Source of the DNA: Synechococcus sp. CC9902
GTDB lineage: Bacteria > Cyanobacteriota > Cyanobacteriia > PCC-6307 > Cyanobiaceae
DNA length: 64,000 nt
Reading direction: 5' to 3'
Assembly (NCBI RefSeq): GCF_000012505.1
Contig: NC_007513.1
Location: 1,674,001 to 1,738,000, forward strand
Shown: one piece after another, positions 51,587-56,845 of the stretch
How the letters are laid out: each line of letters starts with the position of its first letter
Numbering within the stretch: the first letter of the stretch is position 1
Translations under genes and position numbers: made by a program
The notes under the pieces: generated by a model
Told to the model about the DNA's origin: nothing
Seen by the model: only the letters and a program-made list of their open reading frames with translations
The model's database searches: none

Positions 51587-52357
51587 TCAGGCATCGAGGG
51601 CAACCACCGTGCCTTCCATCACCAGCCGTGTGATGCCGCGTTTCAACAAGTAAGAACTCGTTCGCTCAAAAACAGTGGTGTCAGGCACCTTGATCACACG
51701 CTGGCTGCGACCACATTGGCGTTTCGCGGCCCGAGGGTTGGCAAACAAAAACAAGCCCTGACGATCCTGATCAACGGTGTCCAACGGACCCAATTCAGGA
51801 AAATCCCTCAAAGGGCGAGCATCCAACTCCACAACTTTGTCGACCAACATATAAACGCTGTCTGGAAGAACACCGGGGCTGAGGGGCTGCGTTTCCATCG
51901 GTGCGGTGCCACTTAGTCCCGCAACACCAATCAAGGGCACTAACTCCGTGAACACGTCCATGGGGACAAACTCCTCCAACGCTGAGCCCTGATCGTCCGA
52001 CGCCTCTGCAAAATCAGCGGCATCATCAAGCGCAAGGCTGGTCGATTCATCCTCAGAGAGCTCCTCAGCCGAAGACTCTGGTGTGGCGGTTTCGGCCGAT
52101 GCCGCATCCACGCTTGAAGGCACGTCCAACGGTGGACTCTCAAGCAAGGGTTGCGCCGCGACGGCAGCCGTTCCGCCCTTCTGCCGGCTGGCTTTCAATG
52201 CGGCGTAAGCCTCTGGCGGCAACAGAGCTTTAACCGTACGGCTCACCGTATTTGGGCTACAGCCAAATGACTCAGCCAGCGCTGCAGTGGATTCACCTGC
52301 CTTGTAACGGCCAACAAGATCTTGCTTCTCGCTATCGCTAAGACGACGCGCTGCCAT
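51587..52357 (-). CDS. HTH protein with long acidic linker, unknown function
   Basis: 256 aa in three parts: an N-terminal helix-turn-helix (RLSDSEKQDLVGRYKAGESTAALAESFGCSPNTVSRTVKALL, residues 4-46), an acidic low-complexity linker (about 75-135), and a C-terminal domain (LPDSVYMLVDKVVELDARPLRDFPELG ... RSQRVIKVPDTTVFERTSSYLLKRGITRLVMEG). The HTH resembles transposase/Sir-like recognition helices. Likely DNA-binding regulator specific to cyanobacteria; targets unknown. Confidence 0.75.
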   Translation of the reverse strand: MAARRLSDSEKQDLVGRYKAGESTAALAESFGCSPNTVSRTVKALLPPEAYAALKASRQKGGTAAVAAQPLLESPPLDVPSSVDAASAETATPESSAEELSEDESTSLALDDAADFAEASDDQGSALEEFVPMDVFTELVPLIGVAGLSGTAPMETQPLSPGVLPDSVYMLVDKVVELDARPLRDFPELGPLDTVDQDRQGLFLFANPRAAKRQCGRSQRVIKVPDTTVFERTSSYLLKRGITRLVMEGTVVALDA

Positions 52358-52445
52358 CCAATGCTGTTACACAGTGACCAAGTTTAGAAGCCAATGGCCA
52401 GGATTCATCCCGACCTCTTAGCCCGTGCTGTCAAAATGAGATTGT

Positions 52446-52519
52446 GCTCCCTTAGCTCAGCTGGATAGAGCAACTGCCTTCTAAGCAGTCGGTCGTGTGT
52501 TCGAATCACACAGGGGGCG
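52446..52519 (+). tRNA. tRNA-Arg (anticodon UCU)
   Basis: 74 bases with a complete cloverleaf: acceptor GCTCCCT paired to AGGGGGC (one G-U), D arm GCTC...GAGC, anticodon stem ACTGC/GCAGT around loop CTTCTAA (TCT at 34-36), T arm GTGTG/CACAC around TTCGAAT. CCA is not encoded. Reads AGA codons. Confidence 0.97.
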
Positions 52520-52653
52520 TTCATCCAACCCAGTAACAAAAAGCGTTCTGGGACAGCTCTTTGCACATAAAAGATCAGTCAGTAAGTGGTGACTTGAGCT
52601 GTAGATCAATTGAGCACTAGCTAACAAAGGATTGACCTTGCCTTCAGCCAACC

Positions 52654-52971
52654 ATGCAGATGTATCTTGCGGACTGCATCTTTCCAGATATCGAGGGTCA
52701 ACTCGCTGCATACAAGAGTTTTTGCGAGTTGTGGGATTCAGGTGAGATGGCAAAAGCAGATAATTTCCCTGGATTTGAAATGCTATTTCGCGTCCATGCA
52801 CCAGGAGCTGGTCGTGTGACGTGTTTGTTCAAAGCCGAAAGCGATGCACAGATTTTTGAACATTTCGCTCCTTGGCGCGCTCAATACGGCATTGAAATGG
52901 ACTTCACCCCAGTCATCGGCTGCCAAGACGTTGTAGACCATCACAAAAAACTGTTCGCAAAGATGGCCTAG
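52654..52971 (+). CDS. DUF3303-like protein
   Basis: 105 aa, small alpha/beta protein: MQMYLADCIFPDIEGQLAAYKSFCELW, then FEMLFRVHAPGAGRVTCLFKAESDAQIFEHFAPWRAQYGIEMDFTPVIGCQDV. The pattern fits DUF3303, a ferredoxin-like fold found in marine picocyanobacteria. No catalytic residues are obvious. First gene after the tRNA in the small-protein region. Confidence 0.72.
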   Translation: MQMYLADCIFPDIEGQLAAYKSFCELWDSGEMAKADNFPGFEMLFRVHAPGAGRVTCLFKAESDAQIFEHFAPWRAQYGIEMDFTPVIGCQDVVDHHKKLFAKMA

Positions 52972-53082
52972 ACGCTTCTGTCATGCAACCGGCCGCCATC
53001 ACAGCCGTAGCAGCTCAATCGTGCCGGTGCATCCACTCTCTACAGCGCCAACGATGCTGGAGCATGTATCTCAGCTGGCTGA

Positions 53083-53220
53083 TCAGACAGGGATCTCGGC
53101 TTCGATTTCCCAGCCCTCCTCAATGAGCTCGCTAGCAACCTGAGAGGCGTTTTGAGAGGCAACATCCACGAGTAGAAACTCCTCTTGGTGGTTGCAATAA
53201 ATCCTGGTTAGTCCGATCAC
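53083..53220 (-). CDS. Small acidic protein
   Basis: 45-aa frame read from the bases, beginning at GTG 53220. Sequence features: an N-terminal IGLTRIYC strand and a C-terminal helix-strand rich in Glu (QVASELIEEGWEIEAEIPV). The protein-like composition and EEGWEIEAEI ending suggest a genuine small protein. Only the GTG start supports it. Confidence 0.5.
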   Translation of the reverse strand: MIGLTRIYCNHQEEFLLVDVASQNASQVASELIEEGWEIEAEIPV

Positions 53221-53717
53221 GGCGGGGGCTCCCGGGCGTCGATACCGCCATGATTACTCGGCTCAGCGGATCAAGCAATCAACGTCATGCCATTCATGCC
53301 GTTATTCGCATAGGAATAATGCGGTGGGATCAACCTGGCTATGCCTCAACAGCAAAAAATGTTCGGCGCCCACATCTCCGAATGACTGGAAACCTTCACG
53401 GCGATGCCGAAACGCTTCATAAGACTGTGATTACGTACCAATTAGGCAATTAAATAATCAAACAAGTCAATAAACATATTGCAAAATTTCAACAAGAGCA
53501 GCAAATAAGTATTGTCAATTGGACCTGAACTAATTCATAGCCCCCTAAGGAATCTAAACATCAGAACGATGAGTTTTGCGATTTAGAAATCATGATTTCC
53601 CAACAACTACTAATTTTATAATCGTTTACTTCAGCAGCTGTTCCGACATTGGATGCAATACAAAACGCTGACCACAAAACTAAGCAACTGCGTGCAATCT
53701 TAAGTCTTTTACTTTAA
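53221..53717. other. Stretch without a supported gene
   Basis: About 500 bases, AT-rich after 53455. A 67-aa ATG frame at 53250-53453 (plus strand) is open but its composition (many Arg, His, Asn) is not protein-like enough to call. No repeats or strong hairpins were found. Confidence 0.5.
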
Positions 53718-53813
53718 CTAACCCTGTGGCGCACGATTCATTTTGTATATATTCAGGGCGAAACATGCAGTCCCGAAACTGACAAGCAGAACCAGAAGGT
53801 CTTGAGTAGTCAT
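53718..53813 (-). CDS. 31-aa single-helix membrane protein
   Basis: Begins MTTQDLLVLLVSFGTACFAL; one transmembrane helix (about 5-23) and a short polar C-terminus (NIYKMNRAPQG). Its size and layout resemble the tiny photosystem or cytochrome b6f subunits, but it matches none I know. It follows the 40-aa gene below on the same strand, 33 bases downstream. Confidence 0.55.
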   Translation of the reverse strand: MTTQDLLVLLVSFGTACFALNIYKMNRAPQG

Positions 53814-53846
53814 TGTTTGAACCTCAAATAATGGGGAAAAGGTTGA

Positions 53847-53969
53847 TCAACCTTGGGTTTTCTTGATAACAGGCAGATCTGTCGGCTGAGCCAGCACAAA
53901 GACAACTGCGGCCGTGAGCACGGAGGTGATTGCAATGAGGGCGAAGATGGCGCCTGAATAATCAGTCAT
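53847..53969 (-). CDS. 40-aa single-helix membrane protein
   Basis: Begins MTDYSGAIFALIAITSVLTA; one helix of about 22 residues, then a Gln-Pro-Thr-Asp turn and a basic tail (LPVIKKTQG). The start at 53969 was chosen inside a longer open frame because the upstream part is unlike protein. Together with the next gene it forms a minus-strand pair of tiny membrane proteins. No family recognised. Confidence 0.58.
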   Translation of the reverse strand: MTDYSGAIFALIAITSVLTAAVVFVLAQPTDLPVIKKTQG

Positions 53970-54180
53970 CTGTGCCAAGCTATGAAGTTCTGTAACGAAT
54001 ACTAGGCGAGTTGTAACAGGTTGTAAACACCTCTCAGCTTCTAGGTGCTCGGTGGGCGGTTTCGGGCGACCCCATCCAGGCCAAAGGGCGCGGGAGCAGG
54101 CATGGCTAAAAGCTCGTGAGTTTCTACGGATGCGCATCTATTGCTCAAAACGCAGAATGCAATGAGCGGAACGGATCGCA

Positions 54181-54351
54181 ATGAAATCACTTGCACTCAA
54201 AACATCTGCCTTCCTTGAGAATTTTTTAATTCAGACCTTACTTTATTTAGTTTTACTCCCCCTTAAATTTATTTATCGCGCGCCACAACCCACCTGGAAT
54301 GCCTGGTTTGCAAATCAAAGGCTCTGCCAGATCGATGGTCGTTATTGCTGA
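54181..54351 (+). CDS. 56-aa membrane-associated small protein
   Basis: Frame read directly (begins MKSLALKTSAFLENFLIQTL). One hydrophobic helix near 14-30, then a Trp- and Cys-containing tail (APQPTWNAWFANQRLCQ). Protein-like composition; no family recognised. 54 bases before the next gene. Confidence 0.5.
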   Translation: MKSLALKTSAFLENFLIQTLLYLVLLPLKFIYRAPQPTWNAWFANQRLCQIDGRYC

Positions 54352-54405
54352 AATTCACCAGTCGACCAATCCACAATTTCCACCTCATCACAACGAAGGA
54401 TTGAC

Positions 54406-54588
54406 ATGGCTCCATCAGCTCCGCAAACCACAGCTCATAACAACTCCTCTGAGCTACTGGAACACCTGATGGCCGAGGAGATCTCCCTTCAAGTTCAAAA
54501 GATTGCTGAGGGTCTCCAGCGAGAAGGTTGGCCTATGGCATTGGTTAAACGCTTCATGCACGTTGCTGTTGAGGATTTACCCGAGTGA
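54406..54588 (+). CDS. 60-aa small protein
   Basis: Helical: NSSELLEHLMAEEISLQVQKIAEGLQREGWPMALVKRFMHVAVEDLPE. Amphipathic helices with alternating charge suggest a protein-protein module. ATG 54406. No family recognised. A terminator-like hairpin lies 30 bases after its stop. Confidence 0.62.
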   Translation: MAPSAPQTTAHNNSSELLEHLMAEEISLQVQKIAEGLQREGWPMALVKRFMHVAVEDLPE

Positions 54589-54618
54589 TCGCTGTCGAAA
54601 GCACCATTGACCATTAAG

Positions 54619-54652
54619 GGCCTGCAGTCCTTGAAGGCGCTACAGGTCTTTT
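54619..54652 (+). terminator. Rho-independent terminator-like hairpin
   Basis: Arms GGCCTGCAG and CTACAGGTC pair with one mismatch and one G-U across a 12-base loop, followed by four T. It lies downstream of the 60-aa gene on the plus strand. Confidence 0.5.
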
Positions 54653-54813
54653 GACTGGTTACTGGGTCGGAGGGATCATGCCCTAGGCATCTTTCATTCG
54701 ATCTCAGTGAGCCCCACTCGGACAGCGATCACAGTTTGAAGCTTCGCGAAGTGTCTAAAGTTTTTGCAGCAGGTCTTACAGCAACCATCCAGAAGATGTG
54801 CAAGGTTTATTGA

Positions 54814-54960
54814 ATGAGTCCTATTTTTCGCTGCCTGGGTTGCGGCCAGTACATCGAGAGGTCTTTAGCGACCTATAAAAAACACAAGGGGAAAATTTTT
54901 TGCTCAACCTGCAATGATCGCAAAAGAGTTGAGTCAGCTTCTGATTCGACAAAGACGTAG
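54814..54960 (+). CDS. 48-aa zinc-ribbon protein
   Basis: Frame read directly. CLGC near residues 7-10 and CSTC near 30-33 are two Cys-x2-Cys knuckles about 20 residues apart, the spacing of a small zinc ribbon; Lys/Arg are frequent between them. Likely binds nucleic acid or protein (inference). No homologue identified. Confidence 0.58.
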   Translation: MSPIFRCLGCGQYIERSLATYKKHKGKIFCSTCNDRKRVESASDSTKT

Positions 54961-55051
54961 CACTCGGTCAGCAATAACCCTTTCAAGCACTTTGAATGTG
55001 TTGTCCAACATCTCGCAAAGCGTATTGATCGCGCGGGATCAACGATTGGAT

Positions 55052-55252
55052 TCAGTGCATCAAAAGCCAAGCAAGAAGGCCACCAACACCCACACCCTTG
55101 GAGAACTGAACCCAAGTCAACCCATAGGTATCAAGTTGAAGTGTTCTCATCATCAAATTCAAAACCTCCTTGTGCTTCCGCACAAAAAGCGAACTATCAG
55201 CCGTATTGAGCTGTTGAATCTGCTTGAGCTTGATCTCACCGAGCTTGGCCAT
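55052..55252 (-). CDS. 66-aa hypothetical protein
   Basis: Basic helical N-terminus (MAKLGEIKLKQIQQLNTADSSLFVRKHKEVLNLMMRTLQL), then an aromatic segment and a hydrophobic C-terminal end (GVGVGGLLAWLLMH). Composition is acceptable; no family recognised. The opposite strand has an overlapping 118-aa frame that looks less protein-like. Confidence 0.42.
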   Translation of the reverse strand: MAKLGEIKLKQIQQLNTADSSLFVRKHKEVLNLMMRTLQLDTYGLTWVQFSKGVGVGGLLAWLLMH

Positions 55253-55558
55253 TTGCCTCGCGCTTACTAAGTGACTGTAGTCCCAAACAAATCGCCTAGC
55301 TGATCAATCGATCAAGAAGGCCCGAGACTTGCGTGGAAATAAGACAGGTTTAACAATCATGAAAGCAACAGACGAAATCATGCAGACTAACGTCAATACA
55401 AATACTGACATAGCCGATATAAAGAGAAGCAAACACTAAAGATGCGATACAGACAAGAAAAATAAATTCACACGAAGAAAAATATGTTTGAGTGATCAGT
55501 AGCCATCTGCCATCACAATCCATAGTCAAAATGTTTTTCAATACCATTAAAAAAGCCA
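55253..55558. other. AT-rich stretch without a supported gene
   Basis: Contains a 26-codon plus frame at 55359 and a T-rich minus frame at 55350-55559 that is hydrophobic mainly because of base composition. Neither is convincing. Confidence 0.45.
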
Positions 55559-56594: not shown

Positions 56595-56781
56595 TCACCC
56601 AAGAAATCCGATTGGCGCCAATGTTCCGATAGCGAAGCCAATCAATCCAACCCCAATGGGCCCTAGGCTCGCCCCCATTATTGAAAAGAAAACCGATCAG
56701 CGCAGGGCTGGCAATCATCGCTAACATAGAAAAGATCACCACAAAGCAATAGATGAATGGGAAGATACTTGTTGGTGGCAT
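56595..56781 (-). pseudogene. Frameshifted small membrane-protein gene
   Basis: Starts MPPTSIFPFIYCFVVIFSML and runs as two hydrophobic helices, but the frame breaks in a run of five C on the plus strand (56672-56676). Dropping one base there continues as NNGASLGPIGVGLIGFAIGT and ends at a TGA at 56595: 61 aa, fully hydrophobic and Gly-rich like the first half. The span is 187 bases, one over a multiple of three. Either a recent loss or a sequencing error. Confidence 0.5.
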
Positions 56782-56845
56782 CGTAATCTTTTTTATTTTA
56801 TTCTTTGTTTACGAGAGCTGGCTCATGAGAGGCCTGCCACACTAA
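56753..56845 (+). CDS. 30-aa possible membrane peptide
   Basis: Begins MNGKILVGGIVIFFILFFVY; one strong helix and a short tail (ESWLMRGLPH). It overlaps the start of the minus-strand frameshifted gene by 29 bases. Low support: size and T-rich composition could give this by chance. Confidence 0.3.
   Translation: MNGKILVGGIVIFFILFFVYESWLMRGLPH

Follow-up and report, generated by a model that had tools for sequence, protein, structure and literature searches.

Two undescribed families of small single-helix proteins associated with hli genes and HLR1-like promoters in Synechococcus and related Cyanobiaceae

Two very short reading frames on the minus strand of a 64,000-nt stretch of Synechococcus sp. 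CC9902 DNA (the window; its source genome is one 2.23-Mb contig) raise the question of whether such small frames are genuine genes and, if so, which process their products serve. Here they are called A and B; A comes first and a gap of 33 nt separates it from B. The features of the locus are as follows.

53847..53969, minus strand: A gene, 40-aa single-helix protein, ATG at 53969 and stop at 53847 (hydropathy, AlphaFold2, selection)
53718..53813, minus strand: B gene, 31-aa single-helix protein, ATG at 53813 and stop at 53718 (hydropathy, AlphaFold2, selection)
53822..53825, minus strand: GAGG, putative Shine-Dalgarno-like element 8 nt before the B ATG (read from the sequence)
54010..54027, minus strand: HLR1-like direct repeat TTTACAAC-CT-GTTACAAC, candidate RpaB site, 14 of 16 positions
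54022..54027, minus strand: candidate -35 hexamer TTTACA, overlapping the HLR1-like repeat
53999..54004, minus strand: candidate -10 hexamer TAGTAT (promoter scan; orthologue alignment)

The A gene translates to MTDYSGAIFALIAITSVLTAAVVFVLAQPTDLPVIKKTQG (40 aa, also abbreviated MTDYSGAIF...QPTDLPVIKKTQG) and the B gene to MTTQDLLVLLVSFGTACFALNIYKMNRAPQG (31 aa). The A frame stays open 5' of its ATG, giving 96 aa in the list of open reading frames; its homologues share the same start position, and several have a stop just 5' of it. Comparison of the locus with its orthologues in three genome pairs gave pS values of 0.55–0.65 and pN values of 0.024–0.067 for A, and of 0.47–0.85 and 0.08–0.12 for B, so that pN/pS at the A-B locus is 0.04–0.17, each comparison covering at most 90 nt. 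Pooling in a second genus (g57) gave a pN/pS of 0.10 over 44 pairs for A and of 0.09 over 36 pairs for B, the latter leaving aside L164, which has a different start. Alignment of three orthologous loci showed that the promoter, A and B are conserved, and that the flanks, about 100 nt per side in this alignment, show little conservation. A and B are therefore genuine genes under purifying selection. The preliminary description had placed frames of 40 and 31 aa, 33 bases apart, on the minus strand, and both coordinates and translations agree with it; the equal rates of synonymous and non-synonymous change that it had named as evidence against them were not observed.

The predicted shape of the two proteins is simple. 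By hydropathy, 98 of 100 A members and 44 of 55 B members (about 30–48 aa long in both families) reach the usual membrane-segment threshold, and the C-terminal side is the more positive one in 70 of 100 A members and 46 of 55 B members. AlphaFold2 models A with a helix at residues 5–27 (mean pLDDT 87.4) and B with a helix at residues 3–27 (mean pLDDT 84.6); the models predict one helix each and hold little information beyond that. Two further tiny hydrophobic frames of 42 and 30 aa, both without a Pfam match, lie near the pair in the window (55304–55432, minus strand, and 56753–56845, plus strand).

Database searches did not connect either protein with a known family. When 31 A and 18 B members were scanned against Pfam, no E-value fell below 0.003, the curated cut-offs being applied to the window protein and the other members being judged on their best E-values (0.003 and worse). 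DUF5665, the commonest of these weak matches, was hit by 5 of the 31 A members (best E 0.0032), with 13.1 bits for the window A against a cut-off of 27, and was rejected as a match of helix composition; window B had no Pfam match, and neither window protein matched NCBIfam. The weak and scattered PHROGs matches (best E 0.005) were set aside on the same grounds, as were the PDB matches of the A profile to 8k9e_I (E 1.5, the best for A) and PsbZ (E 1.7) and that of the B profile to a stretch of a MATE transporter (E 0.034, the best for B). Known small subunits of the photosystem, b6f and NDH-1 complexes gave no A or B match in Pfam or NCBIfam at curated cut-off or in the PDB. Rfam at gathering scores found only a tRNA-Arg in window positions 52000–55500. 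A literature search, drawing mostly on journals free of subscription, returned from the portions of text available no description of the A and B families or of a small hli-linked gene of this kind, and the accessible parts of PMC3441193 and PMC1242208 do not describe any either. Cyanorak or RefSeq may list the frames as hypothetical proteins. As judged from these searches, A and B appear to be two undescribed protein families. The preliminary description had likewise given each protein one helix and found no match that it recognised; hydropathy and AlphaFold2 bear out the former, and the lack of a convincing Pfam, NCBIfam or PDB relative the latter.

Both sequences were searched against picocyanobacterial genomes, as had been proposed at the outset, and both recur in multiple copies among Cyanobiaceae. 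In a first sample of 59 genomes, A matched 29 and B 25, all in the genus of the window and at up to five places per genome. A profile search of 400 Cyanobiaceae genomes found A in 171 of them (18 of 59 genera), with one to seven copies per matching genome, and B in 72 (11 of 59 genera), many of the weaker B matches possibly being due to chance. The 229 genomes with no A match include some that are incomplete; the 11 genomes listed for genus g40 (1.6–1.7 Mb) had no A match. Samples of the whole class revealed nothing convincing beyond Cyanobiaceae, for A in two samples of 291 genomes each and for B in 242 genomes: the profile matches outside the family (3 of 20, 3 of 20 and 2 of 12 matching genomes) had E-values of 0.0017–0.0076, several lay within much longer frames, and they were treated as chance. 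At the sensitivity used, A and B thus appear as multi-copy families of Cyanobiaceae only. Phage records and viral contigs held no relative of either. Tandem B-like genes occur at two loci of genus g57 (L168 and L171), the second copy being more divergent, and one genome (G347) has eight B matches.

The HLR1 consensus consists of two (G/T)TTACA(T/A)(T/A) repeats placed 2 nt apart. The available text of PMC6331805 gives examples of such repeats. It also links an HLR1 lying inside the core promoters of Synechocystis genes induced by high light to a particular behaviour: RpaB represses these genes under normal or low light, and the repression is lifted when the light is high. Ahead of A, the window has a sigma-70-like candidate promoter (TTTACA-17-TAGTAT, 54027–53999), although the scan that found it gave no excess of sites overall (2 vs 2.1 in shuffles). 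The HLR1-like site (54010–54027, as one string TTTACAACCTGTTACAAC) overlaps the predicted -35 hexamer, so that repression from within the core promoter would be the mode expected here. At the corresponding position of two orthologous loci (L003 and L002) the scores are 13 and 14, respectively. Within the window alone the HLR1 motif is no rarer than chance, with 4 matches at up to three mismatches vs 4.63 expected, and the two other A copies of the same genome (L061 and L062) score 11.

Across the families we scored 16 informative positions in the 150 nt 5' of A and B genes, at least 13 counting as positive; the scan kept 155 of 158 distinct members (two lacked a usable start codon and one had undetermined bases). 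A positive site was found for 50 of the 87 A genes without hli just upstream and for 26 of the 40 B genes without A or hli directly upstream, that is, for 76 of the 127 genes with an upstream region of their own. Genes preceded by a partner had none (0/28), whether the 13 A genes behind hli, the 14 B genes behind A or the single B gene behind hli. The controls reached the same score in 3 of 247 other ORFs of these loci and in 1.3–1.4% of dinucleotide shuffles. Because the members are related, the upstream sequences were clustered; the site is then present in at least half of the members in 34 of 64 clusters (25 of 46 for A, 9 of 18 for B). A TTACA-TTACA spacing of exactly 10 bp occurs in 26 of the 64 cluster representatives vs 2.2 in mononucleotide shuffles, the second commonest TTACA-like spacing being 21 bp (9 representatives). 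Scores below 13 were obtained for 37 of the 87 A and 14 of the 40 B genes that would be expected to have their own promoter. Besides, 3 of the 9 hli-like genes of the window's own genome score at least 13. The window pair, with its candidate site, fits the promoter signature of an HLR1/RpaB regulon.

The gene order at many loci also leads to hli, the genes of the chlorophyll-protecting high-light-inducible proteins (Hlips). Among 134 distinct A loci, a non-random sample limited to members whose start codon lies close to where it is expected and which have 60 nt or more of upstream sequence, A directly follows hli, recognised as a frame with the Hlip motif, in 32, at offsets of -9 to +4 from the hli stop; 12 of these overlap by 1 or 4 nt and 20 are spaced by 3–9 nt. 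Each upstream stop was tested in this count, and keeping only the longest upstream frame misses some hli genes. The 32 loci span 16 genera (g1, g28, g46, g47, g48, g53, g55, g57, g58, g60, g68, g70, g71, g74, g77 and g82), and in a control set of 653 other ORFs from these loci (100 aa or longer, many probably spurious) 4 are placed in this way. As the members are related and the loci non-random, the raw counts overstate independence. No hli lies directly upstream in the other 102 A loci, that of the window included. Three of these hli frames were tested, and they pass the PF00504 cut-off. The hli that heads A/B operons has an HLR1-like site within 200 nt in 8 of 14 cases of a first set and in 12 of 16 cases from more distant genera, figures that stand without a shuffle control and count one locus (L191, identical to L219) in both sets.

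B follows A within 80 nt at 16 of 56 distinct loci by a looser rule (five pairs by a strict pattern), and at 15 of these the distance is 31–36 nt. The window's own genus contains an hli-A-B operon (L017) in which A overlaps hli by 1 nt, B overlaps A by 4 nt, and TTTACATTCCGTAACGAA stands ahead of hli. At another locus (L036) one B gene directly follows hli; linkage of B to hli amounts to these two loci, together with its pairing with A.

Other small frames were seen in similar positions. In the window's own genome, near 2132032–2132300 on the plus strand (L245), an hli with a 15/16 HLR1-like site is followed about 30 nt later by a small hydrophobic frame, MLIERLEQIAAVVVTAGLVAGNFFLF..., which is unlike A or B; small membrane proteins may often be encoded just behind hli. 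In genus g1, A overlaps the stop of another small frame (..AFFGGTVIIAIMVMAAFANVANAGGCS.., with variants) at L010, L012, L065, L066 and L069, a second type of overlapping pair; at L005, L009, L018, L072 and L079 a conserved frame around HWYVTAPDNTFGEGFSWENAPWFSAEGLRDVG, or variants of it, lies upstream of A.

The frames are conserved, a single helix is predicted for each, HLR1-like sites recur, and the orders hli-A and hli-A-B are present. Taken together, these observations lead us to favour, with some confidence, the reading that A and B are Hlip-linked small single-helix membrane proteins of the RpaB/HLR1 high-light regulon, probably located in the thylakoid. From the genome data we infer that in low light RpaB would bind the HLR1 site in the core promoter and repress the A-B bicistron, and that a shift to high light would derepress it together with the hli genes. 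The two proteins would then sit as physical partners beside Hlips in the thylakoid membrane; their most likely site would be on intermediates of photosystem II assembly or repair, where they may tune the duration or location of Hlip binding. Marine Synechococcus would also have spread A and B as separate HLR1-driven units, the window pair among them. A bolder form, which we put forward only tentatively, is that in Cyanobiaceae the Hlips have A and B as their dedicated, non-pigment partner subunits, with hli-A-B producing a three-helix high-light complex from tightly packed genes; marine Synechococcus would then have split off HLR1-driven A/B cassettes, making partner dose independent of the Hlip.

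The high-light regulon could also be shared with hli without any contact between the proteins, A and B acting like SliP4 as a high-light-induced bridge of NDH-1 with photosystem I or II in cyclic electron flow. SliP4, or HliR1, is a 37-aa protein controlled by RpaB and induced by high light, according to the available text of PMC12850537, with one predicted membrane segment (PMC5126843, likewise seen in part), and the promoter signature is shared. The hli-A order in 16 genera points instead to the Hlips, and the accessible portion of PMC5126843 reports no homologues of SliP4 beyond Synechocystis, so that we regard this explanation as unlikely. It is still harder to see A and B as accessory subunits that are present constitutively in a photosystem, b6f or NDH-1 complex of Synechococcus-type cyanobacteria. 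Their size, their single helix and their presence here only in cyanobacteria would suit such subunits, and the preliminary description had in fact noted the layout of small photosystem and b6f subunits. That likeness gained no sequence support in Pfam, NCBIfam or the PDB; what stands of it is the single helix and a link to photosynthesis, now made by genome context. The variable copy number and patchy occurrence of A among Cyanobiaceae genomes, some of them incomplete, as well as the stress-type promoter, also argue against constitutive subunits. The broader wording of undescribed small subunits or regulators survives, with the HLR1-type promoters and hli operons pointing away from photosystem or b6f subunit likeness. 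Finally, A and B could be peptides resembling type I toxins or bacteriocins that have spread in cassettes: they are small, hydrophobic, multi-copy and dispersed, with some tandem B copies, but the recurrent hli context, the HLR1-like promoters and the lack of relatives in the phage and viral collections searched make this very improbable.

Marine Synechococcus is a major primary producer of the ocean. If A and B are Hlip-linked proteins of the high-light regulon, they may be unrecognised parts of the protection of photosynthesis in these organisms, encoded by genes short enough for annotation and proteomics to miss. For the question of how Hlips are placed and removed in marine Synechococcus, A and B now offer named targets for tagging and deletion; if the reading is confirmed, Hlip accessory factors would differ between alpha- and beta-cyanobacteria.

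Known systems resemble A and B to different degrees. SliP4, which joins NDH-1 with the photosystems (available text of PMC12850537) and was earlier named HliR1 (PMC5126843, in part), shares with them its small size, one predicted helix and an RpaB-controlled induction by high light, the latter being predicted for A and B. According to the accessible part of PMC5126843, its gene lies upstream of sodB, unlike A and B, and the protein ends implied by the published primers, the only part compared, are also unlike theirs. Norf4 of Synechocystis, with 31 aa, one helix and the start MTADQLL deduced from a primer, is somewhat like B, although the same partial source reports it absent from alpha-cyanobacteria; a pattern search for Norf4 gave four matches and no 31-aa frame. 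The Hlip/Scp proteins are likewise small, single-helix and HLR1-linked, and stress induction of several hli genes is reported for WH7803 in the available portion of PMC7393227. In the alignments, A and B nevertheless lack the Hlip NGRxAM motif, and with no PF00504 match at E<=1 among 31 A and 18 B members they do not belong to the Hlip/Scp family.

Psb35 is a small single-helix protein. In Synechocystis, the photosystem II assembly proteins Psb35 and Psb34 (Ssl1498), neither of them an Hlip, modulate how Hlips bind to photosystem II intermediates that contain CP47; Psb34 has no chlorophyll-binding domain, and its long N-terminal tail resembles the tail of HliA/B, as given in the accessible parts of PMC9458560 and PMC11449106. 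With about 30–48 aa, A and B differ from Psb34 and its long tail, and a search of PDB chains at large, rather than of Psb34 and Psb35 by name, found no chain under E=0.03 for the A and B profiles. By analogy, A and B may function in the manner of Psb34, Psb35 or SliP4, although the comparison with PDB chains and with the primer-implied ends of SliP4 revealed no kinship in sequence. The likeness to Psb34 and Psb35 that we propose lies in their way of working; A and B stand apart from them as multi-copy genes placed in hli operons or behind HLR1-like promoters.
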